From contig NC_092660.1 in NCBI RefSeq assembly GCF_032118995.1, positions 6,463,501-6,527,500 on the forward strand: a DNA stretch of 64,000 bases. Direction: 5' to 3'. Positions 1-58,295 of this stretch are shown here, in pieces. This DNA is from Asterias amurensis. Taxonomy: Eukaryota > Echinodermata > Asteroidea > Forcipulatida > Asteriidae. The notes beneath the pieces were generated by a model that saw only the letters and a list, made by a program, of their open reading frames with translations, was not told the origin of the DNA and did not search any database. Numbering within the stretch: position 1 is the stretch's first letter; every line of letters begins with the position of its first letter. A program made the translations under genes and the position numbers.

Positions 1-219
1 AAAGTCTACCTCTTTTGGTGGTCCCCCTTCTGGCAAATCCCACTCCTGCTACTAATTGTGCTGGTACCTCGCCTCACTGTTGCACAGACTTTACAGCAGA
101 ATGTTTTATCTCAGCCAGTTAACTTATGGCAGTTGTATGAACAAGACATAGCAACGGTTACCGTGGCACCTGAGGATGCCACTTGTGGGATGCAGGAAAA
201 GGAAAAGATCTGCTCTATG
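1..219 (+). CDS. RTK exon: signal peptide and start of LN domain
   Basis: The frame is open from base 1 and encodes a run of leucine, isoleucine and valine ending near LTVAQ, a credible signal-peptide cleavage region, followed by mature sequence with a TCG...IC pattern typical of the start of LN domains. The exon ends in phase 0 at ATG|GTTAGT. No in-frame ATG precedes the hydrophobic core inside the window, so the true start is probably just upstream. Confidence 0.75.
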
Positions 220-3200
220 GTTAGTGGTACTTTTTTAAATTTGGGTGGTCTTTGAAAATATATTGCTTTGTATTCATCATTTCTTTGAGTATAAAACATT
301 CAAGTAAAGTTTTTACTAAACACCTTGTACTTGAATTGAACCTGTATCATTCAAAATCCCCAAGAAAACATCTGCTCTTTCGTTAGTGACTTTTAAAAAT
401 ATAACCGTTGACGGTAAATCTTCCAAAATAAGCAGACTAATTTGTCTGATCCTGACTAATTTCGCAGGGTAATATTATTCCTTTCAGTGGCTCTACTCAA
501 GTTTAATACTCTTTGGATTATTCCTGTTCAAGTTGTTTTTGATTATCTAGCAGACCCTTTGGGGCCAATTCAAAATCGTCAATTATACTTATTTTATTGT
601 TGATGTTCGTTTGCAATTGTTGTGAAATTTCTGTACGGGATAGCCACACCAGGCGGTTGTGCAGTAGCTAACAGATGCAGATGCAGAACCACAAACTTAG
701 ATTTTCAAATACTGACTGACTATTCACTTTACAGTATACACTGAGAAACAAAGTGCACCAAAGTGTATGAAATGAATAATATAATTAGACCAATGCTCTA
801 ATAGTTCAAGGGACTTCCATGAGCTTTTCCTGGCTTCCAGCATGTAGTTTTGTAGTAAGAACAAAAACGAAAAATAATTGCAAAACACACAACTTTTTTG
901 TTATGGTATTTTTTTCTTCCTTTTGTTCTTTATCAACTGAATTTTGATTTTCAGTTGGGCCAGTTTTTCTTTTGTATGGAGTCATTAAAGTGGCATAGAG
1001 CAAAAGAAATTTAAAGTCATAATAGATTTACATATCGCAACTATGGCTTAGGCTTCAGTGGCAGTTGACTTATGCTAAATTAATTTGAGACATAAGTCTT
1101 AGTTATGACTTTCTTTTATTTTTGTCATTGTCTCTTTGCTTTTGTATATAATAATAACAAAAATAATAATAATGCATTACATTTCTGGTGTGCCCTCTTT
1201 ATCTGAGGATATTCATTGGAAACAACATCAAGAACAATGATTAATCTGAATGGCCCTTGAAAACTAAATTTCATCCACAAAACTAACCGCATCATGTCTT
1301 AATTTCTTTCAGACGGATCCAGTCATTTGTGAGTACTGCCTTGCTTCCAATGAGTCCATATCCCATCCACCTAGCCTCATCCTAGACCCAAACGACCAAA
1401 CCTACTGGCAGTCCTCACCGTGGCAGTTCTACCCTGCTCCTTACATCATCAACATAACCGTCTCCCTCCGTGACAAGAAGAAGTACATTCTCACAGGAGA
1501 TATCGTCTTACGATTTAAGTCCGTGCCACAGGAGGTTGCAATGAGGCTGGAAAAATCCCAAGACGGTGGAATAACGTGGCAGATATACCAATATTTCTCG
1601 ACAAACTGCACTAAAGATTTCAACATGAGCAAGACGAAATCAAACTGGAACATGAAAAATGTCCTGGATGTAACATGTGCGAATTCGTCTCTCACTCAAC
1701 AAACGAGTAATTTGACAGAATTTAGATTTGATTTGGAGGGGAGGATTAACGCAATCGTGGCAAGTGGTGGAGGGTCTTGGGAATATTTCTACCAGGAGTT
1801 GGAGAAACAGGAGTCTCTACGGGACTTTCTGATGGTTACTGACTTGAGGCTTGTGTTTATGAGACCGCAGAGTGATGAGAAGGATGCAGGAATGGGCAGA
1901 GAGAGAATGCATTATGCTATTTATAGTGTTGATGCTAATTTACGGTACAACATTCAAGAACATTTTAAAGTTATTTTTGTTTGTTTGCTTATTTTTTGTT
2001 ATCCAGGGTCGAATATTATAGCTGAAAGCCAGTTTTGGTTAAAGGGCTAAAAGAAGAAAATATTTAAGATGAATCAAACTTGAGGAACTAAGGCAGGAAT
2101 TGATCATTCTAAAACCTCTTATCAGCATTCTGTTCAAATTTTGTTTTGTACATCAGAAACAAGTGAGGCTGCTCTATATTCTGACACCCTTTTGTTCTAA
2201 AAAGAACCACCCGTGTCATTTGATTTGATAAGTTTTGATTTGATTTGAAATGGTTTATTAAAAACAAAGACCACCCCAGGCTAAGGCTGAATTGCAGTCA
2301 AATTACAAAGAGATGACAAATATACACATTTCAAAGAGTTAAAACTACAAGAAAAAAATTGCTAATTAAAGGGTTTTTGTTAGGGCATGGTGAGGGTTAG
2401 GGTTAGGGAAACACACAAGTAGTGTTGGAACATAACGGTGTCGAAACATAGAGTCATCACCTCAGAAACTGCTTCTTAAAAATTTAGTACATGTATATGT
2501 TTTTTGTTTGATTCCTTAAAGTTGTGACTGCAATGGCCATGGAACCCACTGTGTTCTAGTCCCCTCTGAAAGACGCGTCCAGTGTAACTGCGTACATAAC
2601 ACTGATGGACAAAGCTGTCACCGGTGTATGGCAGGATACCAGGCATCACCATGGCAAGCAGGATCTTATCTGCCCTTTCCTGGAGGAACAGCCAATGAGT
2701 GTAAAGGTAAGGTCCCCTTAACATTTGCATGTTAACTTGAAACCAATAAGAATTGGGGATGCTGCATATTGCAAGGAATATCATATAGCAGTGTTGTAAC
2801 ACAGGGGGACATGTGCCTCCCCCACATATGTCCATGCACCCCCCCCCCCCCCTCATTTGAAATCTGGACATTTGAAGGAGAACAACATAAGACTTTACTG
2901 TTGCATCAAACAAAATGTAGTCATATAATTTTGTTCAACTATTTTTCTTTATACACAAAGACAATTGAGACAATTGTAAGTGTTTCCATCTCCGTGCGTT
3001 TCACATATATATATATATATATATACAAACGAAAGATCTACAGTTTTGCCTCCCCCCCCCCAGAAAAAAGCTCCCCTCAAATGATGCAAGACATATGACA
3101 TTCCACCTCATCAGCCCCAACCCCAACCCCCTAAACAAAAATAAATAAATAAATAAATAAATAAATTAAAAAAAACACTGATAGCTGTTTTTTTTACTCT

Positions 3201-6200
3201 TCCAAATCCCAATGATGTGTTTTTATCCATCCAATTTTTAATGTCCAAAAATGACAATTAATATTCAACATGCTGTATTTGCTGAAATCTTTGCTTCAAT
3301 ATAATAAATAAGCTTTGCCAAAATGGGCTTATAAAAAAATAAAAAAAATCAATTTTAAGTCTGGGACATTTTAATTTTAAACAAGCATAAACAGCAAACA
3401 GAAAAAACCCATTCCCAGTCTAAGAAAAAGGTTATATACTTACAACGTCAACAATGGTGTTGGCACTCTTTTCAATTGTAACCAAAAACCTGTCACAGTC
3501 TCACCCTCGCATCATGAAGTAATCTTGTTCTTGAACACCCCCATCATGATGCATGGTATTACCCCACACTTACTGGCAAATGATGCTTTCATAAACGTCA
3601 TAATTAGCATAAGAAAGGAGTACTTTTTGTTTGGTGTTCAACAGGCTGGGTTAAATACAACCAGCATTGTCAATGGAGTGCCAGAAATTGATGTATGTTG
3701 TTGATCATGTATTACATAGTTTAGGACTCAGTGGTTACCTTTAGGCTTAAAGCCTTTCAGTAGTGCGAAGGAGGAAACTTGACTGTGGTTGTACCATATT
3801 GGTGCTGTATACAGAACTGTATTGGGAATGTACAGTCTACCAAACAGGACAAAGTTTGCCAACAAAATTTAGTTTTGTCAGGCCATTGCTGCATAGGAAT
3901 TTATGGTCAGCATTGTTAAGTGTTGACAGTCTGCTGGTAGAGTGCTGACCTGTAGTTGGAAATTTGGATTAACCCGTCTCTGAAAGTGACTGACAGCAAT
4001 CTTGGATTTGGGATTCTATCGGATTGGATAACTGGGTTTTATTGGAATCTGTGTGTGAACTAGGACTCTGGACCTGCGAGCGAGTGGAGGACCATTTATA
4101 ATTGTGATGGAGAGACGGACATTATGGAGATTGTGTGCCTCTTTTGCATTGGTGTTAATTGTTTTTATGCAACTTCCGTATTTGGTGAAGTCACAGAACA
4201 CTACAGGTAAAGTTCTTGGTCATGATTTTCTTTAAATTTGTCTCAACATGTTTGATAACTAAAACCGATTGATAATAAACCCATTTAAAGTATTAGTATA
4301 ACTGTAAATATTGTACAATTTTCTGTATGGTGCCACCACTTTTTCGCTTGTTTTTGCAAAAAGGGATATCTCATTGAGGTAAAATACTATATTATTTCAT
4401 ATCGAATGAAAAAGTAGTGGCGCCATACGGAAACTTTTCCTTCATCTTTGTAGCTTATTTCTTCCATGGGTTTTTCCATCAACTTCGAGTCACTTGGCCT
4501 TAGACAACTGAAAGTGCAAAGCATAGTCTGCCAGACAGTTGCATTAATGCAGTTTCAAAATTGCTTGCTTGATAAATTAATGGTAAATAATTACTAGTTG
4601 GTATTGTTATTATATTTGAGTCGACTTTGTGTAACGACAGTACACACTTACAGGCATCGGCTACAATGATATACAAGGAACAAAGTAAAACCTTGTAATA
4701 AAATCATACATATAAACCATGCAGTAGGCCTGAATAAACAAAAAATACACAAATTGAGAACAACGTTGAATAAAAATGCGGAGGAGTTTTTTATTACCTG
4801 TTTTCAAAAGGTCCAGTTTGCCAATAATAATACAAAATTTAAACTACAAATCTATGTATAATATAAAATTCTGGTTGTATATTATAAAATTCTGGTTGTG
4901 AACTTGTGAAGCCAAGGATTTCAGAAAGCAAACTTAATCAATACGTATAGCCAAGAGCCCTATGGCAACAAGACAAGGAATTCAATTTCAGATGTGGGAG
5001 GAAAACCCTGAGATAAATATTCGATGGAAAACCCACGCAGTCAGGTAGGGCCTGAAAACCCAATCCACATAGCACCACTGGAGGGATTCAAACTGGGGTC
5101 CAAGAGGTGGGAGGCAGACCGCTTTGCCAAACAAACCGCCTCGTCATGCAAGAAGATAAAATTCAGTTTGATAACAATCAAAGTCCTCTGTTGGTCGATT
5201 TAGAACCGCTTTCAAAAACCATCTTATCTCCCAGTATATAGCATAGTTTACTTGTACATGGGTCTGTCCACACTAATGGGACCATTTGATGTGACTTTTT
5301 TTTATAAATGGGTGACAAAAATAAACAAGAAGAGTTTTGTCAAGCTTGTTTCCCATGCACATTCCAAATCACTTCAAGGTTTTTGTTTGCAAAGAGCAAG
5401 ACACATTTATCTGTATTTTAGCAATAACTGGGGATCATCTTCAAGATGATTATGTTTGTAACAGGGGAATGTTGGACAGACATTTCGTACATAAATGGTG
5501 AGAAAGGCATAATAATATAAACAAATTGCCAAAAATGTTGTCCCCTACAATTCTGTTGTCCCTGCAAAGAATGTTTCTAGGCAAAACCAAGACATCTGCG
5601 TGGGTACTCAAGAAACTACAGAGAGTTATCTTGAAGATATTAGGTTTGTAACATGGACAGATATTTGTCACAATATGTCTGTCCATGTTAAAAACAAACA
5701 TTCATACCAGCTGAAAAACCTCAAGGTACTCTTGGTTTTTACAGATAACCATAAAAATAGGGGCAATGGGTCTAACTTAACTAACCTTTGAGTAAATCAA
5801 TTAATTAATTATTTGTGTCATCCATTTCTAGTCAATTCCAATACAAAATGTCTGTCCTCGTTACAAACAATGTGTCTTAAAGAAAACTGCGTAACTTCTT
5901 AAATAATAAGACATTTGTTATACTGTTTGGTAAGCACACTCACTATCAGCAGAGAATTGTACAAAACAAAATACAGGGAAAAATTTTGTATTTTGTGTAC
6001 CCTCCCAGTCACAGTCCAAAAAGGTATCTTTGGAACCAAAAAGACCCATTAGCGTGGACAGACCCATATTTGTATTTTGTCTTGCTTTAAATGTGCTTTA
6101 TTTTGCTTGGTACCTCTTTTATTAACCGTGTCGTAATGTTGCATAAGTCAGTATGATGTCTACTACAGTTTATGTCCACTCCGTTTGTTTGTCTGTTTTT

Positions 6201-9200
6201 GTTTCATTGTTTTGTTTTGTTTTGTCTTTTGTATTTTGTTTTGCTTATTCTTTATTGTTTACTTAAGTCTTTGTTTAAGGCATTCCGTTTAAAAGCTTCG
6301 GCTTCCTGGGTAATGCCTCCACGTATTAGTTTTATTGTATCTATTGTTTTGTTTTCTTATGAAGTGATTACCCTTTGTGGAAATAAATGTTCGTTGAATT
6401 GAATTGAATTGAATCTTGAACACCTTGTTCATATAATGTGAGATGAGGTCCTCCTTCAAAGGAACAAACAAATTAAATGATTTTTTAATTTTTCAAAATT
6501 CACTTCAGGGACACAAAGAAAGGGCCATACAAATAATAATTATTAGTATAACCAATGTGAATACACTAAGATACAATACAAGAATAAATCAGGAAAACCC
6601 TTAAGTAAGGAGCGTTATGTAATACGTAATGAAAAAGAATAGTTTTAGCCTTTTTAATTGGTTGAAAGAAACCAATGATTTGACCATGGCAGTTTATGTC
6701 TTAGACTGCATAAGAAGAAGACCTATATGAATGATTACCTGTAGGGTTAACCATGTTTAAATATTCAGAGCAGATTTTGTGAGGAGGTTCAAAGGCCTAA
6801 GGTTTTAAGCAACTTCATTAATACATACAGGGGCATCGTATAAAAACAAGTCAGACAAATACAATCAATTATAGTTTGTTCTTTGCATAGCAGCATCAGC
6901 TTGACTGTATTTCTCTAGATAATTGATAGGCCTGTATATACATATAGTTCAAACATTCAGGTTAAAAAATGACAATTATAATATTCACATGGAGGTAATA
7001 CAAAATATGGAGAATGAATGGCAAGAGTAAACGTAATTAAACAAATCAGATTAAAAACTGACAGGTAATATTCCCAAAGAGGTAATACAAATTTAATTCA
7101 CAAGTTAGAATAGCCACTAGTTCCAATACCATTAAAGCCAAACTCATAATATAATAATTTACTATTTATATCAGATGATAGGTTCCTATTCCTAGTAGTG
7201 CAGGGCTTCAAATTAACATTAGACTACTGGCCCGAGGCCAGTGATTTCAGCACCAGGCCAGTGAGCACATGACTCAACAAGTCTGGCTGTCTTGTGTTTT
7301 TGTTCAAAAACACTTCAAATATTGACTTTCAGTCTGGTAACGGTTGTGATGAGTAAATTGAAGAATATGCCTACATGTACAAATTACACTTGCACATACA
7401 TGTGCTCGTCTCTCAGGGCTTGTTCACATTTTAAACTGTTCAAAGCTTTTCTTTTGACTGGTCTTGTGAAACAACATCAGGCCCTGTAATATTTTGAGCT
7501 GATATAAAGTACAAGCCCTGTAGTCAGTGTGGATTTCCTACCCAAATTTGAACCATTGTCATACACTTGTACATAGGTCTACCAACCTTAAACTGTGAAC
7601 AGAAGGTAAACAATTGCTGCATCCAAATGTCACATTTTTTCACTTGTTATGATCACAATCATAATCTAATCAAGGGGTTGACATTCTGGGGAGAAGTCCA
7701 CGAGACTGCAGTACTTGTAGTTCACAACTTTTCTTGGACCAGAAGTTTTTACACAAAAGCCCTGTATTGTTGAGGTGTTATTGCAGATGGTTTGTCCTAA
7801 ATTTAGAATCGTCCCAACTAGTCCAAACTCGAGTGTTACAGCTCGGATTGCCTGATCGTACACCAGTAGAACCAGAATGATTTGGGAAATAATTTTCTGC
7901 AATTACACTGTAGATATCAATCATGGAAAAACTTAAGGAAGAACCACATGGTACAAAATAGAATAAGCAATGAAAGGACACCATTATTCAGTTTGTTCAA
8001 CTTTTAATCACACAATATTTGTAAATGTTGCTGGGTTTTTTCTTCTGTTTTAAATGTAGCTAACTGTGTAATATTGAATTCCATTGGTACCAGCAGAAAT
8101 GCATAGCTACACATGTACGTGTTTTCTGTACGTATATTCTGAGTAATCAATAGCACTGATGTCACAGTAATCTGACGTATAGTATGCAAATTCTCATAAA
8201 GGGATTTGGTGTTGCGTGTTTGTAAAGAAGTTATCATAAATTTTGCTGGGGGATATTTCATTATAAACTTTGTTGTGTACGTGTAAAAGATATGTACTCT
8301 GTTGTAAACCTAGTAATTTGTACACAAAACTGTAAAATCTAAAATTTTAAGAGCAAAATTAGATAATGTAGAAAGTACTTCTGTAGGAAAATTATTTTAG
8401 TATTAACTACATTGCTAATGTAAACATGGCATGCCACAGATAGTTTTAAGCTTTGTAAGTCCTGGTATTTCACATGTATTTCTGGTGGACCTTTGTGTTA
8501 TCTAAACATTCAAGGAAAACATTTAACGATAAAACCAGTGCAGTGTCTGTTAAAAGAACCAAGCCAAAACAATTAGCGTGGGAAAGTACATGTGAGTAAA
8601 CAAAACAACAAGGCCATCCAAATTCTGGTTTGAACACATTTGAAGGCAGTGAACGATTTCCCTTGTATATCAGAGCAAAATGCTACGCAAAATGTGTCAG
8701 TTGCTTCTCAAAAATCATCAATGTTTGCTACTCAATATTATTAGAGTTCAGTTTGCACAAAATCTCTTCCGTCAAAATATTTTGCTAAGCAAAATTGCTG
8801 GTTGAAATCGTTCCCTGGAAGGTAAAAATTTGAAGGTAAAAACAAAATAATTCAGATGTATTGTGTCATTGGCTCAGTGCTATGATTGCAACTTATTCAT
8901 AATGATCAAAGGGTCACATAAATATTGAAAAACAACCACTTTTTTTGCATCTCTTTGGAACTGCTTGCTTGGTGCATTCCTTCCATCCTACAATCTAGAT
9001 TTTAAAAGAGGAATATAGTTCCTACCTTTAGCTCCCCTACATGCATACCAAGAGTGACTTTTCTCAAAGTTGGTAAATAGCATCTAAAATAGTTTGTTGA
9101 TATTCAGAGAAAATCAACCCCCTAAAAAAAACAAAAAAACAACAACAACAACAACAGCAACTAGGGACAACTATGTCACCCCCCCCCCCCCCAACTACAA

Positions 9201-12200
9201 AGTGTGTGCATCATTTGAATTTGTCTCATTGGTTTGTTTTAAGATGTTTTCCTTAATAGCATACTAACACCAACAAAACAAAAACAACAGCAACAGGGAC
9301 AATGTGTCATTGTTTCATTTGAATTTGTTTCATTGGTTTGTCTTAAGATATTTTTCTCATGACACAATTTACTCCTTCAGTGCTGTACATACATGTACAA
9401 TACCTTTTAAATGTTATAACTGAAAAACAAATTTGATTAAATTTTAGGGGCACCATTGGTAATTATTTAATCAATAATGAATCTTGTTTTAATTACACCT
9501 TGTTAAAGAAAAACCAATAACAAACTAATTACTCAACTCAAGTCATTCAATTAGTTTGCAAAATTAATTTACTGTGTAATCAGAAAGTGATCAATCAAAA
9601 AGGTTGTAGAGTCTGTTTTCTCTTTCAGGAGACTTGGCTACATTTATGAATGCACAAGAATAACTGTTAATTTGTCAAATTTGTCCTTGCTTTAACTTTA
9701 AAAATAAAATCTACGTACGTCACAGTTTTCTGTTTTCATAGAAACACTGAGCTACAGTACGTGCATGTGTGGTAACTACACCAGTAGGCCTACGTCTTTG
9801 TAATTTCGTTTAACAATGATATTGTTGAATGTAAAACTGTTGTTGTTTAAGCCACCTACACAATCTGTCATTTTTTACTGGTACATATCTGACATGCAGT
9901 GATGTAAGCTTTATTAAGAAACCATTATCCGAATGAGAGATTTGAGATGTCATCAGGAATAAAATGTATTATTGAAAGTTTCGTCATATTTATATTTGAC
10001 CGATGCGTAAGTCTGAAGCAGAGTGTACCGATTTCTGAAAATTGTAAACGGGAATTGTGACGCCAAAACCAGACACTTTTTGCAAAAAATCTCAACTTTA
10101 TTTGTTTGTTTGCTTGTTTGTTTGCTTTGTTGTGGGGTTTAGGGGTGTCTTGGTGATCAAAAAGAAGAGAATAAGAACTTAGTGATTTTTCAGGCAGTGC
10201 ATGGTGGGCTTCAATGTACATGTATATGTTTGGTTTGCCGAAACACCATGTGTAAAGCTACTGTGCTGTAAAGATTTTGTTATTTTGAGAACTTGACTTG
10301 TTATTTATTCTATTCTGCTGTAGCGGAGTAGATTTCAACTTAGATGTAGTAATACTTAATTTGTTATCTTGGAAGTTGTTCACAACATAGAACTTTTAAG
10401 ACATCACATTCACATGTAGGGTGTTGTAGCCGAGCTAATAAGCGCACCAAACTCAAGCTCTGGTGCTTCTGTTCAGCAGAGTGGGTTCAAATCCTGGTCA
10501 TGACACTTGTGTCCATGAGCAAGACACTTAACTATAATTGCTTCTCTTCACCCTGGGGTAAATGGGTACCTGTGAGGGCAGAGATGGTTCTTGTGATTGA
10601 TTTAGCCGAGTAACGCAACTTAATGTTGCACAGGTTGTAGGGCCTAGTTACTCCCCACCAGGTAGCTGAGGTGGTTTAAGGAATGTTTAAGGCCCAGTGA
10701 CCAGGGGTTACAATGTTGGAAGCGCTTTAAGACGCCCTCTGGGTGTGAAAAGCGCTATATAAAAACTGGTTATTATTAATATTATATTATCAAGGCTGAT
10801 GTTTCAGTTGTCTTCACTTTCACTAGTTTTCAGAACTGCCTGGTTTTTACGTGAGGCGTAACAGATGAACTTCTCTTGAACATTTGTACCTTAGAGTACT
10901 TGTTGCATATTGCAGTACAGGAAGAGCACTGGACTCGAGCTCTGTTTTTTAATTTTTTATGAGGATAAATTATAATAATGTTGGAGCGCCATGAGCGACG
11001 GTTTTGAGCAATTTATATGACAAACCACTTTTATTAAAGTAAAAAAGAAAGTGTTAATCCATCAGTTATCATTGATTTTATCCCTTTTGTAGTATCTCCA
11101 ACTCAAGAAACAAACATCTCTACCGAGCCCCCCAATGATGCTGACCCACGAGCCTGCACCCCCAGCCCATGCCTCAATGGAATATGCAAACCGGAAGAAA
11201 CAGCCGCTGGTTACAAATGCAGCTGTGATATTGGATATGCGGGTATGTTATGTTGCAAAGATCATCGGGTTTAAAGGCATGGGAGTTGATTTCACAAAGA
11301 GTTTGGACTAGTTCTAACTTAGGGCTGCTTTAGTCCTAGGAGATATTGACAAACTTAAGCCTAGTCCTAAGTTAAGACGAGTAACTCATCCTAAGTTGAG
11401 ATAAGACTAGCATGCCTTGAATTTCATCTTAGAGAGGGCAAGGTTATTTTCTTTTTGCAAAGGGCACTTCTCTAAGAAAATCTTCAAGTCTATGGGAAAC
11501 TTTTGATAGGGCACCAAGGCCAAGACCAGGGCAACAAAGGCCTCTGTGGCTTCCTTGTTATTCAAGGCTTGGACTGGTTTTATCTCTGTGTGAAATCCAC
11601 CGGCCTGGACACTACTCAAAATTATTGTGTGCATTCACACTTACTTGGTAACAAGCAATAGGGAGAGCTGTGGATATTATAAAACATTTTGAGAAATGGC
11701 TACCTGTAAAAAGTAACACCGTTTTTGGGGGTAAGAGTAAGAGTTTCTCGCTCAAATAATAAAAGACTTCAAGCCTGAAGCCTTTAATTATGCATCTGAA
11801 AGCACAAAAACTTACAACTGCAACAAAGGTGTTTTTTCTTTCATTGTCTTGCAACTTCAATGACCAAGGTAGCCAACATTTTCGCAGAGTTGTTACCTTA
11901 TGCGTATGTTGGGATACACCAAGTGAGAATACTGGTCTTTGACAAGTACCGAAGGTATCACTTTCCAGTGCTTTTAATATTCCTGCTTTCATGTAATAAG
12001 AGAATTGCATCATTAGCCCCTTACTGACAGACATGATGTTCAGACACCATGGGGTATTGTATTCCATTTTTTAAATGGCATCTGGCATGTTTGAAGCATG
12101 TTGGGTCAAGTTTCTGATAGCTCTCAAGTTGCAAACCACTGTGTACTCAATACTCTGTGTCTACTCTAACAAAAGCTATGAAACCCTGTAAAAGTACAGT

Positions 12201-15200
12201 ACTACCATAGGACAGAGCCATCAGACAAATACATTAATAACTTGTAAAAAAGTAGGAACCCAGAATGTAAGTAAAATATAATTGGAGAGAGATACACTGT
12301 AACTACAGGCCTCCAAAACCTACTTGTGTCTCTGTGTTTCTTTTGTAAGAAAAGTAATGAAACCCTGTAAAATTAAAGAAGGCCAAGAACGCAAAACAGA
12401 GACATCAGACAAAACTACAAAATAGTCTGAGAGAGATTAATAATCACAGGTATCCATAACTTAGTCAGGCCTGATACTTCACAGAGGCAACAGAGGCGAT
12501 TGCCTTCATGCCCTAGTCATTGCATTGGTGCCCTTCAAATGCTCCTATAGAAAACAATTTCCTCCGAGGGTGCTATTTACCAAGGAGAAAATGACTTGTG
12601 CCCTTGCCCTTTCAAAAACGAAGCATACTTACTGGAAAGTAAGCAGTTTTCAATAGCTATCTATTTTCTTGGAACATTTTCTAACTTTCAAAGTTTACAA
12701 TTGTCATAAAGTCATGAACTCTCCTTTTGTTTTTCATCAGGTTATTCCTGTGAGATAAACCTCAACCCGTGTCGGAGCAATCCATGTGCTGAGTTAAATG
12801 AGGCATGCGTGAGTGAGCGGTACAATCATTACAAATGCGTACCGTGGGCTTCAATAAATGGCACAGAGCCACCAGTAGTTACAACCCCAGTCCCTTTGGT
12901 GAGTTTACAATCAGTTTATATCATTTTTACAATAGACAAGAGGATCCAGAATTGTGTTTTACAACTATTTAAGATACTTAAAGGGTAGCTATGTGTTTGC
13001 TAATCACTCCTAAAATAATGGCAAACAAAACTAATATGTAAGCTCAGCATGACTGTACTTTTCACTACTTAAACTTAAGAGTTCATCTCCTGGTTCATTA
13101 GTTAAAAAAAGGAGAGTTTGTTTGGTCATCAATATTTAAACATTTCTTCATATGAGCTAACCTGAGCAGCTTTCTCCAGAAGACGATCAGAGCATCTGAT
13201 CGCAACAATGAGTTTAAACCAACGGTTCTTCTCAGAACTACCCCAATTCATTTAGAGATAGTCATTACATGGTGTCACTGCAAAGCTTTCCATATTGTAT
13301 TTATGAAAAGTTTCAAATCCTACTAACCTAAGTACTAAACCTAAGGGGTAGTCTGGGCCTATTTGGTCTTGTGTAGGAGGTGCAAGTAAGATGGTCCGCT
13401 CACATTCCAATGAGCCACAGTTATAATGAGATCTACAAATCCTGACTGCGTCTAAATAATGTCATTGGAATACTAAAGCCACCTTTTACATGACAACAGA
13501 GATCCTTTTGATAACGGAGCCATTCATGAAGATAGCCCTTTATTTACTCAAGGTTTTTTCAAAGAGATTTGGTTCTGAAAAGCTTTCATAGAGCCCTACC
13601 CCCCCTCGCCCCCATTGATGACTTTAGGGTGTGTAGTCATATCAAGATTGACCACTTCACCCTGGTTAAACTGAAGAGTTGACATTTGTAGTATCATCAG
13701 TAAAGCTTGGGCAGTTATGATGTCAATTTTTTTCCTTGAGCAGATGTTAAATTTGGAATGTAAGTATTTGTATATGATCTTAGGACAGTCAGTTGTTGTG
13801 TACGAGGTTCGTTTAGGAGTAGAACAGGCTTTAGTTAACATAGTATCGCCATTTAATCTGTTGGTACCACCAATCTGGCTAACCGATATACTGTTTGTTA
13901 GTGTTGTTATGCTTGTAAAGGGGTCCACATGAGCACCTTTTGTGTCACACTTGGTATCACGTTTTGTATCAGAAAACACACTTTTATGAAAAATTGTGAG
14001 ACAACTACACAATGAAAACACTTGTTCCATTGATAACTTTTACCTTTTCCGAGTATATCCATGTATATGCTCTCTTTTAGTTTCAAAAGTTTGGTGATGT
14101 ACGTGTAGGGCATAAGTTTTCATTTCAATTTTTTTAAGTATGGTTAAAGTTTTTCCAACTTTATTCTCAAGGGCCCAACTTTATAGAGCTGCTTATAATC
14201 ACAAAAAATAGCTGGGTAAAACAAATACATGTATGTGATTCCAGATATAGGTTACCATCTGAAGTGCCATTTAATATAACCCTTTTCGACTGGTTTCTTG
14301 TTATTTTTGCAATATGAGATTGGGACAGGTTCTTTATTCATTTGTAGAATATTTTGGTGATTTTTATGAGAAAATTATGTAATCCTGAGCGACTGATTGG
14401 AGCTTTCATATGTATCTAAAACCACTGCAAACTCAAATTTCTCAATACTAAATTTTTAAATTCCACTCTAGTATAAACTGTTTGAATTTGTGTCTTCTTG
14501 ATAGAACACTGGTTTGATTGGCCCTACTATTGGCATCATCATCGGAGCCCTCCTCGCTGTTTGTCTCTTCTGTTTATGGATCGTTTTGATCGTTTGGTGC
14601 ACAACATGGCGTCACCTTCACGGCAATGACAAGTTTAATCTGAAGTATGCTGACGAGGCTGAGAAAAAATACAGCAATAATACAGTAAGTGGGATGAAGA
14701 AAAACTTCCTTGAAACGCTATGGTGGCAGCAGAAATTGGTACAAATCCATTGTTCTCGAAATATGTTAACAATGGAAATTTACCCAACATATCTGCTGCC
14801 ACCATGACTTTCTCCAAATGTCATTATCACTTATAAAGAACAGCCCCCTCCAAACTCTTATGACTTTGTTGTTATATTTTCACAAAAAAACAAAATTCTG
14901 TAAAATCAAACATAAATTGTTTTTTTTGTGTTTTTGGGGCCTTTGCTTTTTAAATTGTGTCTCTGTGAAGCGTCTTTTAGGCAGACTTTGGAGCTAAGTT
15001 TTCGTTATTATTATTATTATTTTTGTTAATGTATTCTTTCTTCAAATGACAATTAAGGATCTATGAGTAAGTTTTAAAAAAAATTGAATTAATTTCATTC
15101 AAGCATTATGGCAGAATATAATCACCTAGTGAAATCTGACTTTTCTATTTCACTTAGCTTTGCCTCAAGAAATGGAATAGCAGACATTTCATTTTGTGAT

Positions 15201-18200
15201 TTTGTTCTGTGACAATGAATTCGGAAGACGTTATCAATATTGTAGAACATGATGTATTAGATGGTGTATGTGATAAAATTTTATTTTTGTGTATAGTTGC
15301 TCAACACCTACAGTACATTGTACATTACTCCAATGCTTAAATGTTTCAATATAGAATAGAAACCATGTTGTAAATTTTTGAGAAACCTTCTGTAAAATCA
15401 AACATAAATTATTCATTATATTTGTTAATGTATCCTTTCTTAAACAGTACAAGATGGGAGGTGCAAAATCTTGGTTAGTTCCTGACGGTCGTAGCTCAAT
15501 GAGAGCTCACAAACTTCGAGATCGATGGATCATCGACGAAACACTGTTGGATCTGGGCAAATTGATATACAGCGGGGAGTTTTCTTACATCTGCGAGGGA
15601 ACCTACAAAAATAAAGAGAAAGACACATCGAGTAAAGTTGTTGTTAAACTATTGCGAGGTTTGTGAAATCCGATATTGGTTCTTTCAAAAGTACAAAGTT
15701 TAACCAGTTTATTTTGTAAAACAGTTTAGTCAATATGAGTTTATTTCAAGATATCAATATTAAATGTAGGGCCTAATGATTTGAGATTATTTTATTTTAT
15801 TTTATTGTTGGGTTGTTTTGATTTGGGGTTGAACAAATGACTAAAGTGGGATTTGAACCAACGAGGTCCAGATTAACGAGCTAGCATTCTCTAGCCATAT
15901 GATTACAGTCTTTCTATGAATAATGTTTATTATTATTATTACTATTATTATTATTTAAACTGACGTGTTCCAACAGATGAGAAAGACACAGATTCTTTGA
16001 ATGAGTTACAGAATGAGTTTGAGGTGATGGCATGTATGGGACGTCATCCTAACATTGTCTGGCTCCAAGGAACCTGCAGCAGAGTCTTGGAAGAAACAAG
16101 TAAGTGCCTCACCTCCTTTAAGGGCCTTGTCATGCGAGGCAACCTTTACAGGCAACTTGGAGGCAACCAACTGCAGTGCATACTACAGGAGGACTTTTCA
16201 AACAATGTCTTAAGATCCCAAAGAAAAATAATGTGTGAATCATATTTAAATGTGGATGACTTTTCTTCTTTGAGATTGCGTGGAAGTGATTGGCTGTAAA
16301 TTGCCTCTTGGACATGAACCTCACAGTCAACAGTCTTTATTATATTCAAACTTTTTTTTAAATGCTTTTTTTAGGTATTTGGATTAGTTTCTTTAATTTC
16401 ATGGCAAATCCACAATTGTGTCTCTGTTTGGAGGCATTTAACAATTAACCAGCAGTCACCAGGCCACTCTAAATGCGGAACAATGGAAATGAACAATTAA
16501 CAAAACAAAGAAATTTTAGCCACTGAGCAACATCTACCCTTGCAGGTTATACCCTGGGTGACGAGAAGCGATTATAGAAATGCATCTTGTGGGTTCGAAT
16601 CCTAAGTCATGATTAGGATTCACATCAACATCCTGATGACTTAACCACTAGAACTTGACTATGATGCTCTTAAATGCTCAGCCATGACACCCTACATCAT
16701 ACACAGTACATGTAAAATTGAAAATTGTCAAGTTCCAAAATGCAAGAAATATTCATATTTCTCTTCATGTGTTTTTTGGGTTTTTTTTTTTTACAGCTCA
16801 GACCTGTCTGGTGAATGAGTTTGTTGCTCGTGGTGATATGCTTCGTATCTTAAGACGTGGTCGCTGCAGGCGGAGGGACCAGCCACCGTACTCACCAACA
16901 CCTGTAGATGAACTTCTAGGCTTTGCTTGTGACATTGCACAAGGAATGAGACATATTACACTACTGAAGGTGAGTAGTCAGTCTTCCATATACATGCACA
17001 GTGACTTAAAGGCACTGGACGCCTTCGGTAATTGTCAAAGACCTGTATTCTCACTCCTTTCTCTTCAACTTGGTTTGTGGATTGGTCATGGGATCCCCTA
17101 GACGCCTATTGTTTTTGGATCCCCTCAGATAAATATTAAGCTGGTTATGGCTAAAACAAAAGAAATGTTGTCCGAGCGACGTTTCAAGAATGACTTGGCG
17201 TATCAACTCCAAACTTGGGTTGTGGATTGGTCATTGGATCCCCTAGACACCTATTGTTTTTGGACCCCCTCAGATAAATATTAAGCTCATTTTGGCTTAA
17301 ACAATAACTCAAAAAGGACTTGGCGTAGCAACTCCTATCTCAGCGGGGCATTTGTGTTGTCAACACCCTTCTTGTTTCTGTATGCTTTCTAACCCCATTC
17401 ATGTATTTCCACTTCACTGCTTATGTTTCACTTAGTTACCTGTTCATGTTTGTTGTGTTCTCATTTAGCCTTTGAGAAAGGCTAGGGTCGAAAAGTCAGG
17501 CCATTAACTAGTTTTTGCAAAAAGAAATTGTGAAAATGTTTACTCAATTGGCCACCAAAATTTACTTCTTGTGTATAGAAATTCCTATAGAGAAAGTGTC
17601 TTCTAATGGCTGTCCGATTCCATGAGTCGTACTGCCTAAATTGTCTCAAAGTGATCCAGCTGGCTTGTTTGTTGTTAAAAGCATCCCTATTTAATATAGT
17701 TACTTTGTCAAGATGGTACGGGGTCCATGAGTGTCAGGGTTATCCTGTTTCCTTAAATACGTGTTTATGTACCTTTTATTTTAAATATTATGGATTTTTA
17801 TCTTCTCCATTTATTTGAGGTTTGTGAAATAAATAAATAAAATAATTATTGACAAGTGAAAACGCAGGTGGACTAATGAAATGCAAACAATTTGTCTTGT
17901 TGGATTGACTAAAAAACTTTAGGGCTAGTTCTGCAAGTTAAATTTTACCCAAACTGTCAGCAATTTTACCATGATCTAAATAATTTTTATTTGTGTTTTT
18001 TTTATGCACAGTATGTGCACATGAATCTATGTGCCAAGAATGTCTTTATAACCTTCAACAACAAAGCCAAGATTGGAGACTTTGGCATGGCGAAAGAACT
18101 ACCGGAATCGTCGGGCTACGTACGATACACAGAACATCGAAATGTGAGTAATGATGAAATGCTTATAATGAAGGGAATATTAAAATGGACGAGCTCTTGG

Positions 18201-20767
18201 GTTTGATTAAAAAGGCTAAACGATCAGGGCACAAATTCGTGGCTCTGCTCACCCCAAAAATCTGCGCGTGTCATCACCATTCTCTGCTCACTCTGCAAGT
18301 GCAGATATTTGTGTGCTAGCTGTGTCAGTGAGGAATGCCTAGTAACGTGGAGTACGCATGAGCAAAAGCAAGAAGTCCCAGGTAACCTGTGAAATACGCT
18401 TGATAAAAGCGTGGAATTCCCTGCTTCCGTAAGCACCGATTCATTGATTGCAGCAAGAAGAACCATGAAATTGGGCCCTGGTCCTACCGGTGAAAAAATA
18501 TAGTATTTTGTATACAACCTTTTGTTTGGTATGTCATTTTGTCAAAGCACTATAAATAAACTTGAATTTGCTTCTTTTAAAACAATTTAGAAACATATAA
18601 AGAGATGGATGGCTTATGAAGCATTGTGTGAGGACATCTACAGTGTCAAAAGTGAAGTGTAAGTTATCCTCAACTTCAATCAATTTATGAAAAAGTATTG
18701 ATTTTCTTTTAGCATACTAGATAATTCTGTCTTAAATGTTGGCACTTGGCTTTGACACGTAGTGTTTTTTTACAGGCAACCTGGAGGCAACCAACTATTG
18801 GTAAAGCTTGCAAAAGGATTGAGCTCTTCAATGACACAAGATGCATTTTTCATTCTTATTATTCTTATATATTTCTGTTAATGAAACCAATGATGCCTCA
18901 TAAGTGCACTTAATCACTGTAGCTTGCAATGTCCCATCTGAAGGATAAAGGAATTATGATAAAGTTTCTTGTTCAAGGATGACTCAAACTGCTCTAAGTT
19001 TAAATCTTGCAGACCTACTCTGTTTTATCAGCTTGAATTTTGAACAGTTTCATCTTACAATTTAATAAATTCTTTTAATTTTTTTTTCTTGTACATATAG
19101 GTGGTCCTTTGGAATTGTTCTGTGGGAGATAATTACGCTGGGTGAGTAGCTAAAAATCATTCATGCATACTTTTTAATGTTCACTAAATTGTTTTTACTT
19201 CATAAATACTCTGGAAATTTTTTTTTTACCCAGTATTTACTCTATAGCTACACCAAGATTTGCCATTCGCCTTTTACTCAGCCATTTCACATTAGTTTTT
19301 AAACTAAATGTTTGCATCGTTTTCTTTTTACTCATTTTATTGTAAGTGAAGGCATGTTTTAATCCATTATTATCACGATTTATTTATTTCTCTTTGTTAG
19401 GTGGAATGCCATATCACAACATCAAAACAGCCGACTTGGTGAGCGAGCTGCGAGACCACACCCGCATGGAATGGCCCCGTCACTGCTCCCCAGAAATCTT
19501 TGATCTAATGCTCCGATGCTGGCATCGACGACCGGAGAGCAGGCCCTCGTTTGACATGTTGTACACAGAAATCAAGAAGATGAAGACAATGGCTAAGGTA
19601 ATTTCATGAAATTTGTCTATAGTGTGTGTGCGTTTTGCGTTTGTTGAGGAGATGATGGTCTTATATTCAATTTGTCTCGCTCTTTATCGGAATTTAGGTG
19701 GTATCTCTGGATCAAGGTGACGCATATTTGTGTGCTTTATTTTGTATAATGTGCATGTTTGTAATGCACTTTTTACTCCTTTTTGCTTTTTTGTTAACTG
19801 TTGTGTATTTTTAATCAAATTTCAATTTCTGCCCATGTTTTTTTTTCTGCAGTATAATGAATTGAATTGAATTGAATGGTTTATTCGTCAAGTATATAAA
19901 AATACATGAAATTTACAATCCTATTGTACAGCAACATATAAAATATTAATATGTAAAATTGCACGAGTATAATATAATGTATTTGACTGTACGGTGCTTT
20001 GAAACAGTGCAAAGCACTGTATATAAATGCAATCAAGTTAAGTGAAAATAGATTCTTGATTGTTACTGTACTGCTGAACTTGTTACTGTTGTTTCTTTGT
20101 GTGCAGACGTGCCTATCATTTATTTGTTGTTGTGTAGTCTACACATGGTTTTAATGTGAACTTTAGTTTTTGAATTTTGATAGTTGTGAGACTTACAAAC
20201 CAAAAATGAATTCTATATAATCGTGGGACAATAAATCAGACTTAAACTGACTTTTGACTGGATTGAAAAAAAGAAAAAAAGAAAGTTTGTCCTCCTTTAT
20301 CATGATTTAAAATTGAATTTCTAAATTGTAACAATTTCTGCCTGAAAATGTATTGTTTTTCAAATGCAACTATACTTTAAACATTCAAAGTTGATTTCTG
20401 TTGCTTGTGTTCTTTACGCCCCTTTGTTTGCCTGTTTTCCATTTGTATTTTGACCCTTTTCGTACGTTGCTTTTTTCATATTTTTCCAAGTCAACTGGTA
20501 AAAAAAAACATTAAAAAAGACTCCATTCCAGGTCATTTGCTGGCATGCAGAAAACTGTAGGCTTACTGGGTATATATGAGAAATTTAGCATTTTGTGTTT
20601 TGTCACTTATTGTAATGTTTTTAATTTACAATTCTCTTCATTCTTTGATCTTTTTTTTCAAACAGAAACATTTCAACTTGAAGGATTATACTTATCAGAA
20701 CTACGTTCCAGTAAAGTTGGAAGAGGATTTAGTCATGGACAGCGTCCAAGACTCAACGTTTGTCTAA
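1..20767 (+). CDS. Receptor tyrosine kinase-like protein, laminin-N-terminal/LE/EGF ectodomain (5' partial)
   Basis: Coding exons by GT-AG boundaries: 1-219, 1313-1944, 2522-2706, 11093-11242, 12741-12898, 14505-14684, 15448-15658, 15977-16099, 16797-16969, 18012-18143, 18591-18658, 19101-19141, 19401-19597, 20666-20767 (stop TAA). All phases fit; the sum is 2571 nt, 856 codons plus stop, counted from the window edge. Residues about 5-30 are a hydrophobic signal segment; about 55-284 a laminin N-terminal (LN) domain; 285-345 one laminin-EGF repeat with all eight cysteines; about 361-397 an EGF repeat; about 403-425 a shorter four-cysteine EGF-like stretch; about 454-476 the membrane helix; about 535-818 a tyrosine-kinase-like domain; 824-856 the tail. 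It should be a single-pass surface receptor. The start codon probably lies just left of base 1. I recognise no named family with this order. The exon joins are inferred, but fourteen consistent phases make chance unlikely. Confidence 0.87.
220..1312 (+). other. RTK intron 1
   Basis: AT-rich intron of about 1.1 kb from the donor at 220 to the CAG acceptor at 1310-1312. I see no second gene in it, only a short AAT-rich stretch near 1149-1172. Confidence 0.6.
1313..1944 (+). CDS. RTK exon: body of the laminin N-terminal domain
   Basis: Encodes about 210 residues of LN domain. It shows the CEYC pair, the TYWQS motif (the netrin/laminin TWWQSE region), the RLEKSQDGGITWQIYQYFSTNC strand region (written here in part: ITWQIYQYF) that matches the SxDxGxxWxxYxYFxxxC signature, and the closing YAIYSVDANLR that leads into the LE repeat exactly as in laminins and netrins. 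Ends in phase 2 at CG|GTACAA. Confidence 0.88.
2522..2706 (+). CDS. RTK exon: single laminin-type EGF (LE) repeat
   Basis: Begins CDCNGHGTHC and holds eight cysteines with LE spacing, ending in TANEC. Laminins, netrins and usherin follow LN with several LE repeats; here one repeat is seen before the sequence changes to ordinary EGF modules. Acceptor AAG at 2519-2521; donor AAAG|GTAAGG, phase 1. Confidence 0.85.
2707..4106 (+). other. Intron with simple repeats, upstream of an alternative first exon
   Basis: Part of the 8.4-kb intron between the LE and EGF exons. It contains poly-C runs near 2838-2852 and 3050-3061, an AT dinucleotide run at about 3005-3025 and an AAAT run near 3139-3167. No coding exon is recognised before 4107. 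A promoter for the alternative exon would have to lie at the right end of this stretch, but I see no decisive promoter motif. Confidence 0.5.
4107..4206 (+). CDS. Candidate alternative first exon: second signal peptide
   Basis: An ATG at 4107 opens 33 codons: a basic start (MERRTLWRL), a hydrophobic core (ASFALVLIVFMQLPYLV) and a polar KSQNTT end, which is a classic signal peptide. The frame stops at a strong donor, ACAG|GTAAAG, in phase 1. That is the same phase as the LE exon donor at 2706, so this exon can splice directly to 11093 and give secreted-start, EGF, membrane and kinase parts without LN or LE. It could instead be a chance signal-like frame; the coincidence of ATG, signal core, strong donor and phase argues against that. 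No transcript evidence is available here. Confidence 0.55.
4312..4440. mobile_element. MITE, GGCGCCACCACTTTTTC family
   Basis: Terminal inverted repeats around TGGTGCCACCACTTTTTC on the left and GAAAAAGTAGTGGCGCCA on the right, about 130 bp in all, with no coding capacity. A second member at 33235-33366 shows the full ends and an 8-bp target duplication. Confidence 0.75.
4441..5257 (+). repeat. Intron stretch with a tRNA-like dispersed repeat (about 4980-5150)
   Basis: Mostly unremarkable AT-rich intron. The part at about 4985-5155 (GGGAGGAAAACCC ... GGGATTCAAACTGGGGTCC) has an RNA polymerase III B-box-like sequence on the minus strand and reads like an old SINE fragment. A duplicated TAATATAAAATTCTGGTTGT-like stretch lies near 4858-4897. 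Confidence 0.4.
5258..6067. mobile_element. Non-autonomous DNA transposon with 23-bp terminal inverted repeats
   Basis: The left end ATGGGTCTGTCCACACTAAT and the right end, which contains TTAGCGTGGACAGACCCAT, form inverted repeats of 23 bp with one mismatch. The 810-bp interior has no transposase frame. It repeats the end motif inside, including a hairpin around 5651-5691 built from ACATGGACAGATATTTGT and its complement. Confidence 0.75.
6068..10418 (+). other. RTK intron, mostly unannotatable
   Basis: A 4.3-kb AT-rich intron stretch. Near 6395-6415 GAATT repeats follow an AATAAA-like tail, as at the 3' end of a LINE or SINE. GGCCAGTG-rich repeat sequence lies near 7220-7270. ACA repeats and a poly-C run lie at 9135-9192. 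I see no exon whose phase would fit between the LE and EGF exons and no convincing gene on either strand. Confidence 0.45.
10419..10790 (+). mobile_element. tRNA-derived SINE
   Basis: The head has an A-box-like TAGCCGAGCTAATAAGCG and a B-box GGGTTCAAATCC at tRNA spacing. A body follows (CAAGACACTTAACTATAATTG, CTGGGGTAAATGGGTACC), then a 3' end GCGCTATATAAAAACTGG and a TTATTATTAAT tail. This is the full layout of a SINE of about 370 bp, not a functional tRNA gene. Fragments of the same family lie at about 62108-62215 and 63675-63790. Confidence 0.8.
11093..11242 (+). CDS. RTK exon: threonine/proline linker and first EGF repeat
   Basis: After a short linker it encodes CTPSPCLNGIC...GYKCSCDIGYAG, the first five cysteines of an EGF repeat; the sixth is in the next exon. 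Phase 1 at both ends, as usual for EGF module exons. It can follow either the LE exon or the alternative first exon at 4107-4206. Confidence 0.85.
11243..12740 (+). repeat. RTK intron holding MITE-derived repeats
   Basis: Near 11283-11410 is an inverted-repeat element (CTAAGTTAGAAC-type arms). About 11620-11960 is a diverged member of the TTAA family described at 63027-63401 (ACTTACTTGGTAACAAGCAA, GATATTATAAAACATTTTGAG). About 12490-12715 is another dispersed repeat; 12541-12712 recurs almost unchanged at 34670-34835. Confidence 0.55.
12741..12898 (+). CDS. RTK exon: end of EGF 1, partial EGF-like repeat, juxtamembrane stalk
   Basis: Starts GYSC, completing EGF 1, then NPCRSNPCAELNEAC...YKC with only four cysteines, so the second EGF-like unit is short. 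A TEPPVVTTPVPL stalk follows and ends in phase 0 at TTG|GTGAGT. Confidence 0.82.
12899..14504 (+). other. RTK intron
   Basis: A 1.6-kb intron. An open frame on the minus strand at 13596-14030 has no recognisable domain. Around 14168-14215 is a fragment resembling the GGGCCCAATTTCATAGAGC element seen whole at 63424-63673. Nothing else is recognised. Confidence 0.45.
14505..14684 (+). CDS. RTK exon: transmembrane helix and juxtamembrane segment
   Basis: Encodes a 23-residue helix (GPTIGIIIGALLAVCLFCLW and onward) with a GxxxG-like small-residue face, then a basic stop-transfer TTWRHLHGNDKFNLKY. Phase 0 on both sides. This places the EGF part outside and the kinase part inside the cell. Confidence 0.88.
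14685..15447 (+). other. RTK intron
   Basis: A 0.76-kb intron. An inverted repeat of about 30 bp, at 14705-14738 and 14778-14808 (TGGTGGCAGCAGA-type arms), forms a hairpin just after the donor, probably a small MITE. Nothing else is seen. Confidence 0.4.
15448..19597 (+). CDS. RTK exons: tyrosine-kinase-like domain, probably catalytically dead
   Basis: Seven exons encode the fold. The glycine loop is degenerate (IYSGEFSYICEG). The beta-3 lysine is present (KVVVKLLRG), and so is the helix-C glutamate (LQNEFEVMACMGRHPNI, similar to the FGFR/VEGFR pattern). A basic, proline-rich insert (RRGRCRRRDQPPYSP) precedes helix E. The catalytic loop reads HMNLCAKNV where active kinases have HRDLAARNV. 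DFG is intact (IGDFGMAKE). The APE motif is AYE (WMAYEAL), and the helix-F aspartate is glutamate (EVWSFGIVLWE). RPSF near the end is normal. Loss of the catalytic aspartate predicts no or very weak phosphotransfer; nucleotide binding may persist because K and DFG remain. Confidence 0.86.
16100..16796 (+). repeat. RTK intron with MITE and SINE fragments
   Basis: Around 16120-16330 is an inverted-repeat element with CAGGCAACTTGGAGGCAACC near the left and its complement type (ATTGCCTCTTGGACATG) on the right; part of it recurs at 18775-18798. About 16550-16615 has a B-box-like GGGTTCGAATCC of a SINE fragment. Confidence 0.5.
16970..18011 (+). repeat. RTK intron with local duplication and LINE tail
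   Basis: About 17072-17150 and 17214-17296 are two copies of one segment (GGATTGGTCATGGGATCCCC). About 17585-17850 looks like the 3' end of a LINE, ending TTTGTGAAATAAATAAATAA. Bases 17640-17750 of it recur inverted at 34838-34930. Confidence 0.5.
18219..18482. mobile_element. Degenerate MITE in RTK intron
   Basis: The stretch between CAGGGCACAAATTCGTGGCT and CCATGAAATTGGGCCCTG carries imperfect complementary ends of the GGGCCCAATTTCATGG type that recurs in the window. It has no coding capacity. Boundaries are approximate. Confidence 0.45.
19598..20665 (+). repeat. Last RTK intron with LINE-type tail
   Basis: At 19855-19876 a GAATT repeat joins GGTTTATTCGTCAAG, the minus-strand 3' end of a non-LTR element. 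The rest is AT-rich intron with nothing recognisable. Confidence 0.45.
20666..20767 (+). CDS. RTK last exon: C-terminal tail
   Basis: Encodes 33 residues from KHFNLKDY to STFV, then TAA. The tail has three tyrosines in YTYQNYVPV. YQN fits the YxN pattern bound by Grb2-type SH2 domains. The end STFV fits a class I PDZ-binding motif (S/T-x-hydrophobic). These are short-motif predictions. Bases 20714 onward are duplicated at 34933. Confidence 0.8.
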   Translation, partial: KHFNLKDYTYQNYVPVKLEEDLVMDSVQDSTFV

Positions 20768-22250
20768 ATCTATGGATTTTTTCCCCCTTTGCTATGGATC
20801 ATCTTTCTACTGAACACTTGACTTATTTGGTTTCCTCTCTAATCCGATCAATATACCGAGCCAGTAATCCAATCCAATCCAGGGGCCTTTCTCAAAGCTC
20901 GGCTTAGGCTCTTTCTCTGGCTTAGGATCCGTGGCTTAGGCTCTGTCTCTGGCTTAGGATCCGTGCGGTGCATACGCAGTGGAATCGCAGCTCAGGCCTA
21001 TACATTTTTAGAGCAGCATGTATTTTGCACGCGATGGTGGTTTGAACATCAGAGTGTACCCTCTGTAGTGGATCAGTGTTGTCTATGGATCGTCTATGGA
21101 ATCTGCCTAAAACATGACAGGAAATACAATAAAAGTTACCTCTCGACTCTACATCCATCACATTAGCAGTTTTTCTAATGGTTGTAATTTTGTTTTCAAA
21201 TACCTGAAACTACCAGAAAGTGTTTTAAGTTTTCAATGGACATTCAGGCATAATACAATTTGATGTAACCAACTCCTTTTGAAGCCCTTTAGGGTTATAA
21301 TCAGATACAATCATTGAACAAACTGAGTATAGATAAGCTGTTCACTTTATTGTGTTTCCTGTCAAATAAAAGTGTCAGAATTACTGGTTTTTATTTTTCA
21401 ACTTTACATTTGCACTTTACTCGTGTACAAACATTTTACTGTACACTAACCTGAAGCCAGGAAACCTGATGCAAAATATTTATGTCAAATTTGGGAGTTT
21501 GATGTTTTCAATCATGGGTAGTTTGAAATGTGTTGCCACTTTGTTTTTTATTATCAGAATTTTTTAAACTAAACTTATCGGCCTGTTTTGAATTAATACT
21601 GTACATAGCCTGGTGCATGGTATATCTTAACAAAATATAAAATTATGGTTTTGAGTTTTTGCTGGTTTAATTAATACTGTAATTAAATAATTAATGCAAC
21701 TGTCAACCTGTTTGATGATATGCTTTTACTGTATAACAATTACCCTATGTATAGGAGCAAGAAAGAAATTTAAAAAGTTAAACCGTGTTACTTAAAAAGG
21801 TATCAAAATTAACCCAAACACAGATATGTTCTTTTTCTATATGAGTTCTTCAGCACAATACCGGAGGAATGCTGCAAAACTTATTAATAATACTTACTTG
21901 TAATACAGAATATTCTGAAGGAAAAAATATTTGAAACAAAAATACAAAAATTGGGCGAAAAAAGAAAAAAAATTAATATCAAGTAATAAACCACTAAACT
22001 TTGTTCGACCCAAAATGAATGTTTAAAAACAACTAATACTCTGAAATTAAACATCTCCAATTATTTTCACAACTCTTTCTATTAACCCTGACATAGTTCA
22101 ATAATTTGATTATCAAATGTTTTTTTAATTGGTGAGTCTTCGCAATGAAAGGGTGTAGTATATGTATGTTTATTTGTTGGTATTGAATATTTTTATAATA
22201 AACATTTCCGATTGATTTTTAAGTTATGTTGTCCTTGTTGTTTTCATCTG
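20768..22250 (+). promoter_or_regulatory. RTK 3' untranslated region with poly(A) signals and a MITE remnant
   Basis: AATAAA occurs at 21128-21133, 21365-21370 and 22197-22202; any of these could end the transcript. From 20881 lies half of a MITE (AGGGGCCTTTCTCAAAGC) followed by two units of a 32-bp GGCTTAGG/GGATCC sequence at about 20901-20965. The same spot in the second copy grew into the array at 35113-35640. Confidence 0.5.
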
Positions 22251-23197: not shown

Positions 23198-23203
23198 TTT
23201 ATT
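23198..23203 (-). promoter_or_regulatory. Poly(A) signal of LRRC41-like A
   Basis: AATAAA on the minus strand, 79 bases past the stop codon of copy A, a suitable distance for its 3' end. Confidence 0.5.
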
Positions 23204-23281
23204 AATTCAATTCAGATAATATCAAAAGCAACTTATGTGTATCAACGATGTTGACCATACAAATTTAAGGAAAGGTGAGGT

Positions 23282-38300: not shown

Positions 38301-38320
38301 AAATTCTCAATGTTGACATT

Positions 38321-58290: not shown

Positions 58291-58295
58291 AGCTC

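Follow-up and report, generated by a model that had tools for sequence, protein, structure and literature searches.

The window, meaning the whole 64-kb stretch of DNA analysed here, carries a gene model of 14 exons on its + strand between positions 1 and 20767, which we rebuilt with consistent phases and with GT/AG at every border. The joined product has 856 residues and a single stop, at its end (20767). Such a series of 14 exons had been claimed in the initial annotation, with emphasis on the junctions 1944/2522, 2706/11093, and 12898/14505, and all three were reproduced exactly. The exons, together with a candidate alternative first exon lying between exons 3 and 4, are as follows.

1-219, + strand: exon 1, a signal-peptide-like stretch (FWWSPFWQIPLLLLIVLVPRLTVA, hydrophobic by sequence) and the start of the LN region; phase 0 out.
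1313-1944, + strand: exon 2, bulk of the LN domain (Pfam Laminin_N 3e-35), netrin-G-type by structure match and tree.
2522-2706, + strand: exon 3, LE1 repeat with a SYLPxPxG insertion (EGF_laminin 2.1e-06; alignment).
4107-4206, + strand: candidate alternative first exon, whose ATG opens MERRTLWRLCASFALVLIVFMQLPYLVKSQNTT; ends in phase 1; donor score 3.8.
11093-11242, + strand: exon 4, Ser/Thr/Pro linker and EGF module (rebuilt model; Pfam EGF sub-threshold).
12741-12898, + strand: exon 5, end of the EGF, a partial second EGF-like stretch, and stalk, by sequence.
14505-14684, + strand: exon 6, transmembrane helix and juxtamembrane region, by sequence.
15448-15658, + strand: exon 7, kinase N-lobe with a degenerate glycine loop (YSGEFSYI) and the beta-3 lysine (VVVK).
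15977-16099, + strand: exon 8, helix C (glutamate present) to beta-4.
16797-16969, + strand: exon 9, hinge, helix D, insert, and helix E.
18012-18143, + strand: exon 10, catalytic loop HMNLCAKN (HRD changed to HMN), with DFG present.
18591-18658, + strand: exon 11, WMAYEAL (changed APE motif).
19101-19141, + strand: exon 12, helix F region.
19401-19597, + strand: exon 13, end of the kinase C-lobe.
20666-20767, + strand: exon 14, C-terminal tail with YTYQNYVPV and the stop TAA.

The left edge of the window cuts through exon 1, and the initiator methionine therefore lies outside the window. At the other end, no 3' end could be assigned to the kinase gene, as neither AATAAA nor ATTAAA was seen in 20700-21000. 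Splice donors were scored with a hand-written matrix, by which the donor at 1944 was the lowest of the 14 scored (-1.8) and that at 2706 the second best (7.4). The weak donor at 1944 could be a sign of an assembly or exon-calling artefact that joins unrelated loci. It is offset, however, by the outcome of the LN-LE1 splice, which restores the RCDCNGH start of LE1 in a form that can be aligned with netrins and laminins. Moreover, the window contains no N, the model borders are all GT/AG, and a single strand carries both halves in a span of 20.8 kb; we regard such an artefact as highly improbable.

A Pfam scan of the joined product detected Laminin_N (122 bits, 3e-35), EGF_laminin (28 bits, 2.1e-06), and PK_Tyr_Ser-Thr (231 bits, 2.5e-68), all well beyond chance level, bearing out the LN domain, the single LE repeat, and the tyrosine-kinase-like domain that had been described from the letters. 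The membrane helix described with them was also recognized, by eye and directly from the sequence (LIGPTIGIIIGALLAVCLFCLWIVLIVWC). The claimed order, from LN and one LE to EGF, membrane helix, and kinase, holds in that the parts are in phase on the same strand and could be joined by default splicing, but the plural "EGF modules" was too generous, as one EGF-like match (6.5e-04, 20.4 bits) lies below the Pfam cut-off of 21.5 bits and a second is only partial. The predicted receptor has the layout of a receptor tyrosine kinase, with a signal peptide (by a hydropathy script), an ectodomain, one membrane helix (by eye), and a cytoplasmic kinase domain; the Pfam scan of the model gave no Ig or cadherin match. 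It departs from a laminin chain, which has an LE array and a coiled-coil region, in having one LE repeat and no array, with no laminin domain beyond LN and LE in the same scan.

The LN-LE1 head comprises 345 residues, which stay open through three spliced exons with the key cysteines kept. Compared with solved structures, it scored highest against netrin-G1 (194.8 bits; best PDB match, 3zyj), followed by netrin-G2 (175-176 bits), and lower against netrin-1 (100 bits), netrin-4 (74 bits), laminin alpha-5 (73 bits), and laminin gamma-1 (71 bits). For scale, netrin-G1 scored 167 bits against netrin-1, and laminin gamma-1 scored 363 bits against netrin-1 and 135 bits against netrin-G1. The identity was 39.3% to netrin-G1 over 285 aligned positions and 34% to netrin-1. 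A tree of five sequences could not place the root, and laminin beta-1 and netrin-4 were added to make seven. In the resulting tree, the head grouped with netrin-G1 and netrin-G2 with an SH-aLRT of 98 and a bootstrap of 98 under LG+G4, and with 99/98 under both WAG+G4 and the chosen model. Among the three topologies tested, those joining it to netrin-1/laminin gamma-1 (AU p = 0.005) or to laminin beta-1/netrin-4 (AU p = 0.038) were rejected. In the alignment, the window and netrin-G1/G2 have insertions in common, namely one that precedes LRDF..VTDLR and another, SYLPxPxG, that closes LE1, and at the fully split columns the window agreed with both netrin-Gs at 12 and with netrin-1 and gamma-1 at 7. 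Against the grouping speak its long branch (1.24 in the seven-sequence tree), the seven netrin-1/gamma-1 columns, and an identity of 39% versus 34%. Judged from its sequence, the head is of the netrin-G type and deeply diverged. The initial annotation had considered the head a basement-membrane polymerisation or netrin-like module. Its netrin half stands, narrowed to netrin-G by score, tree, and insertions, and this similarity makes polymerisation the weaker half; a polymerisation head is disfavoured by sequence, at 195 bits for netrin-G1 vs 73 bits for laminin alpha-5. Prokaryote genome contigs (24 matches) and viral contigs (3 matches) to the LN-LE1 pattern included no relative, as expected for an animal gene.

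Netrin-Gs usually go on from LE1 to LE2 and LE3, have a GPI-anchored C-terminus, and bind NGL (LRRC4-type) partners. The window likewise has LN followed by LE1, but no second LE-like pattern was found on either strand of its 64 kb, a search that an intron-split LE could escape. The search used a relaxed pattern that admits two residues between the middle cysteines and matched five of five control LE repeats. The rest of the window showed no further LN pattern, and the only in-frame continuation of the head with recognizable domains is the EGF-TM-kinase part, with hidden exons possible. The absence of LE2 and LE3 after LE1 would also suit a partial and recent netrin-G-like copy that landed upstream of a receptor, in which case the join would be an accidental read-through without function. 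The neighbourhood is indeed mobile, with a duplication (22.5-31.7 kb vs 36.8-46.3 kb, pieces 90-99% identical) and two reverse-transcriptase-like ORFs. However, the 345 residues are open over three exons with intact key cysteines, and none of the 25 longest self-matches involves a duplicated block that reaches into 1-20767, so that we consider a stray copy unlikely.

Among the best 60 of 1745 distinct chain sequences matched, the solved single kinase domains closest to that of the window were those of FGFR4 (185 bits) and RET (184 bits); the top row was a tandem EGFR construct, in which the scores of two domains are summed, and was set aside from this single-domain ranking. The kinase domain of the window retains the beta-3 lysine (VVVK), the helix C glutamate, and DFG. 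HRD is changed to HMN, which lacks the catalytic aspartate, the glycine loop has the sequence YSGEFSYI, and APE has become AYE. Thus, from the motif set of an intact receptor tyrosine kinase (GxGxxG, the VAIK lysine, HRD, and DFG), the lysine and DFG are present, and the glycine loop and HRD are altered. HMN in place of HRD, together with the degenerate glycine loop, points to weak or dead catalysis, and the domain is probably a pseudokinase, or a very weak kinase at best. These three changes, and the lack of an Ig or cadherin match in Pfam, set the window protein apart from FGFR and RET. ErbB3 (HER3) is a receptor pseudokinase in which the catalytic-loop aspartate is replaced by asparagine and which signals through an active kinase as its partner. 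By comparison, the HMN of the window would represent the same Asp-to-Asn change, whereas the ectodomain of ErbB3 is unrelated and the glycine loop of the window is more degenerate. Two YxN tyrosine motifs also occur in the predicted dead-kinase receptor, YSNN in the juxtamembrane region (14505-14684) and YQNY in the tail (20666-20767). We take them to resemble pYxN adaptor sites, and the motifs are only suggestive of such a use.

Three fates of the LN-LE transcript are compatible with the DNA. Firstly, it may be spliced from 2706 to 11093, where the donor is strong (7.4) and the phases agree; this transcript should skip 4107-4206, since first exons carry no acceptor to splice to. Phases, strand, and GT/AG borders all allow the LN-kinase join, making it a possible one. 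Secondly, retention of the intron after 2706 would lead to a stop nine codons past the donor (GKVPLTFAC). Thirdly, the transcript may end in one of the candidate phase-1 terminal exons in 2707-4106, which are located at 3064, 3645, 3745, and 3764 and would add tails of 11, 15, 12, and 61 residues, respectively. The candidate at 3064 has a pyrimidine tract of 0.93 and an AATAAA at 3140 (76 bases on), and lies in C-run and A-rich low-complexity sequence; AATAAA occurs within 3140-3338. An LN-LE-only product is, hence, possible on the sequence. As for base composition, the CpG observed/expected ratio was 0.23 in 2707-4106 and 0.09-0.66 in the introns; per kilobase, it was mostly low over 1-20 kb (0.19-0.78) and slightly higher in the flank at 20.8-45 kb (0.46-0.54). 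The CpG and skew profiles do not discriminate between a single gene and two.

The candidate first exon at 4107-4206 ends in phase 1 and would join 11093 in frame, giving a complete receptor without LN, encoded by 545 codons with the stop counted. Its leader is convincing on sight, with V and S at -3 and -1 before QNTT (by eye). When the window was scanned for signal-peptide ORFs followed by a phase-1 donor, this exon was the sole match on the + strand in 64 kb; on the - strand, the same scan gave one other match at two looser settings and zero at the strictest. In first-order Markov sequences (n = 20), 0.05-0.15 matches were expected per 64-kb strand, with thresholds set post hoc. A first scan with a donor score of at least 5 had missed exon 4107 (3.8) and found one unrelated phase-0 match; the threshold was cut to 3.5, and phase 1 was required, after exon 4107 had been seen, which makes the rarity estimate post hoc. 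The singularity of the scan match and the quality of the leader suggest that an EGF-TM-kinase receptor without LN is probably real. With this signal peptide on exon 4107-4206, and with four terminal-exon candidates or a retained intron upstream, the scenario that had been set against the join from the beginning, in which the LN-LE exons end before 4107 and the EGF-kinase part starts separately, is alive by the sequence.

In its fullest form, that scenario would place two adjacent genes on the same strand, one for a netrin-G-type LN-LE1 protein that is short and either secreted or anchored, and the other for an EGF-TM-pseudokinase receptor from 4107, with the terminal exon of the upstream gene in 2706-4107 or with intron retention as in LaNt alpha-31. 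Both the signal-peptide-like exon at 4107 with its phase-1 donor, subject to the same post hoc estimate, and the four candidate phase-1 terminal exons with AATAAA at 3140-3338 speak for it. LaNt alpha-31, an LN-LE short form made from LAMA3 by intron retention, likewise consists of LN, LE repeats, and a short intron-derived tail, according to PMC9788559. However, none of the four tails looks domain-like by eye or carries a lipid-anchor signal, the candidate at 3064 lies in low-complexity sequence, and the LE2-LE3 pair usual in netrin-Gs was not seen in the window. We give two adjacent genes a substantial but less than even chance.

The reading that we favour over two genes is one receptor locus with two promoters, which would produce receptors with and without LN, and we put its probability at about 0.5. 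An upstream promoter left of the window would yield a type I membrane protein in which a netrin-G-type LN-LE1 head is carried on a short EGF stalk, followed by a single membrane helix and a tyrosine pseudokinase closest to the FGFR/RET group (among the best 60 of 1745 matches). An internal promoter at ~4.1 kb would yield, through its own signal-peptide exon, the same receptor minus the head. The LN transcript would skip 4107-4206, with the strong donor at 2706 meeting 11093 in phase 1. Both transcripts are presumed to exist; the head may bind a partner on the cell surface or in the matrix, and the pseudokinase may signal either with an active kinase as its partner or as a scaffold, perhaps via the pYxN-type tyrosines.

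The two-promoter locus is supported by 14 of 14 exons in phase, by the strong donor at 2706, by exon 4107-4206 as the sole + strand candidate, and, weakly, by the interval 2707-4106 being as CpG-poor (0.23) as introns. It is also supported by the lack of a second LE-like pattern after LE1 on either strand of the window, since an ordinary netrin-G continuation is then not visible before the EGF-kinase exons. On the other hand, the EGF-kinase half does not need the head to be complete, as much as 8.4 kb (2707-11092) separates the two halves, a phase match between 2706 and 11093 would arise by chance one time in three, and extracellular modules usually have phase-1 borders. The stop in the retained intron (GKVPLTFAC) and the terminal exon at 3064 also permit an LN-LE-only product. 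A precedent that favours the two-promoter locus is LAMA3, in which one promoter gives an LN-bearing chain and a second an N-terminally truncated chain (PMC9788559). LAMA3 and LaNt alpha-31 would thus parallel the window in the proposed pairing of LN-bearing and truncated products from two promoters; LAMA3 differs in that it encodes a laminin chain, not a receptor, and its LN is of the alpha type. Taken together, we tentatively propose, at somewhat below even odds, a non-vertebrate receptor pseudokinase with a netrin-G-type LN-LE1 ligand-binding head that is switched on or off by promoter choice.

The closest known relatives of the head, netrin-G1 and netrin-G2 (NTNG1 and NTNG2), resemble it in the LN-LE1 unit (best match 3zyj, 39.3% identity, common insertions). 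Unlike them, the window head was found without LE2-LE3 or a lipid-anchor end, and EGF-TM-pseudokinase exons come after it. PMC4706652 describes netrin-Gs as exclusive to vertebrates, and PMC9788559 (section 6) places their origin at the beta/gamma laminin ancestor, from which older relatives would be predicted. If the present reading is true, netrin-G-type heads predate vertebrates, which would agree with that section, and an adhesion module that is elsewhere lipid-anchored, with no cytoplasmic part, would here be coupled directly to a cytoplasmic domain with a kinase fold. With the fusion, this would be a receptor tyrosine kinase architecture, combining a synaptic-type adhesion head with a pseudokinase, that was not met among the open-access matches listed. 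Neither an LN-bearing receptor kinase nor an invertebrate netrin-G appeared in the titles and abstract starts of those matches, most subscription journals being outside them. PMC8662651 discusses a wide shuffling of receptor tyrosine kinase ectodomains, and "laminin" and "netrin" are absent from its main text; the same two words are absent from that of PMC9953206. The main text of PMC10381214, a review of the echinoderm matrix, contains neither "netrin" nor "tyrosine kinase".

Several other features lie in the window. A dispersed repeat at 11640-12000, with ten more partial matches in both orientations within the window, looks similar to repeats of sea-star genomes. The direct duplication spans 22561-31659 and 36797-46302 (offset about 13.9-15 kb, pieces 90-99% identical), and each copy has - strand ORFs that look leucine-rich by eye; two ORFs of the first copy were tested and gave no Pfam match. 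Two near-identical reverse-transcriptase-like ORFs of 336 aa lie on the + strand at 29941-30951 and 44584-45594, the first matching RVT_1 in Pfam (4e-13). Satellite arrays occupy 46563-48329 and 56740-58297, with self-match offsets of about 79 bp and about 205 bp, respectively. Finally, the + strand at 61293-62951 holds likely exons of a major facilitator transporter, in which MFS_1 was matched at 4e-15 by the second ORF and at 3e-4, under the cut-off, by the first.
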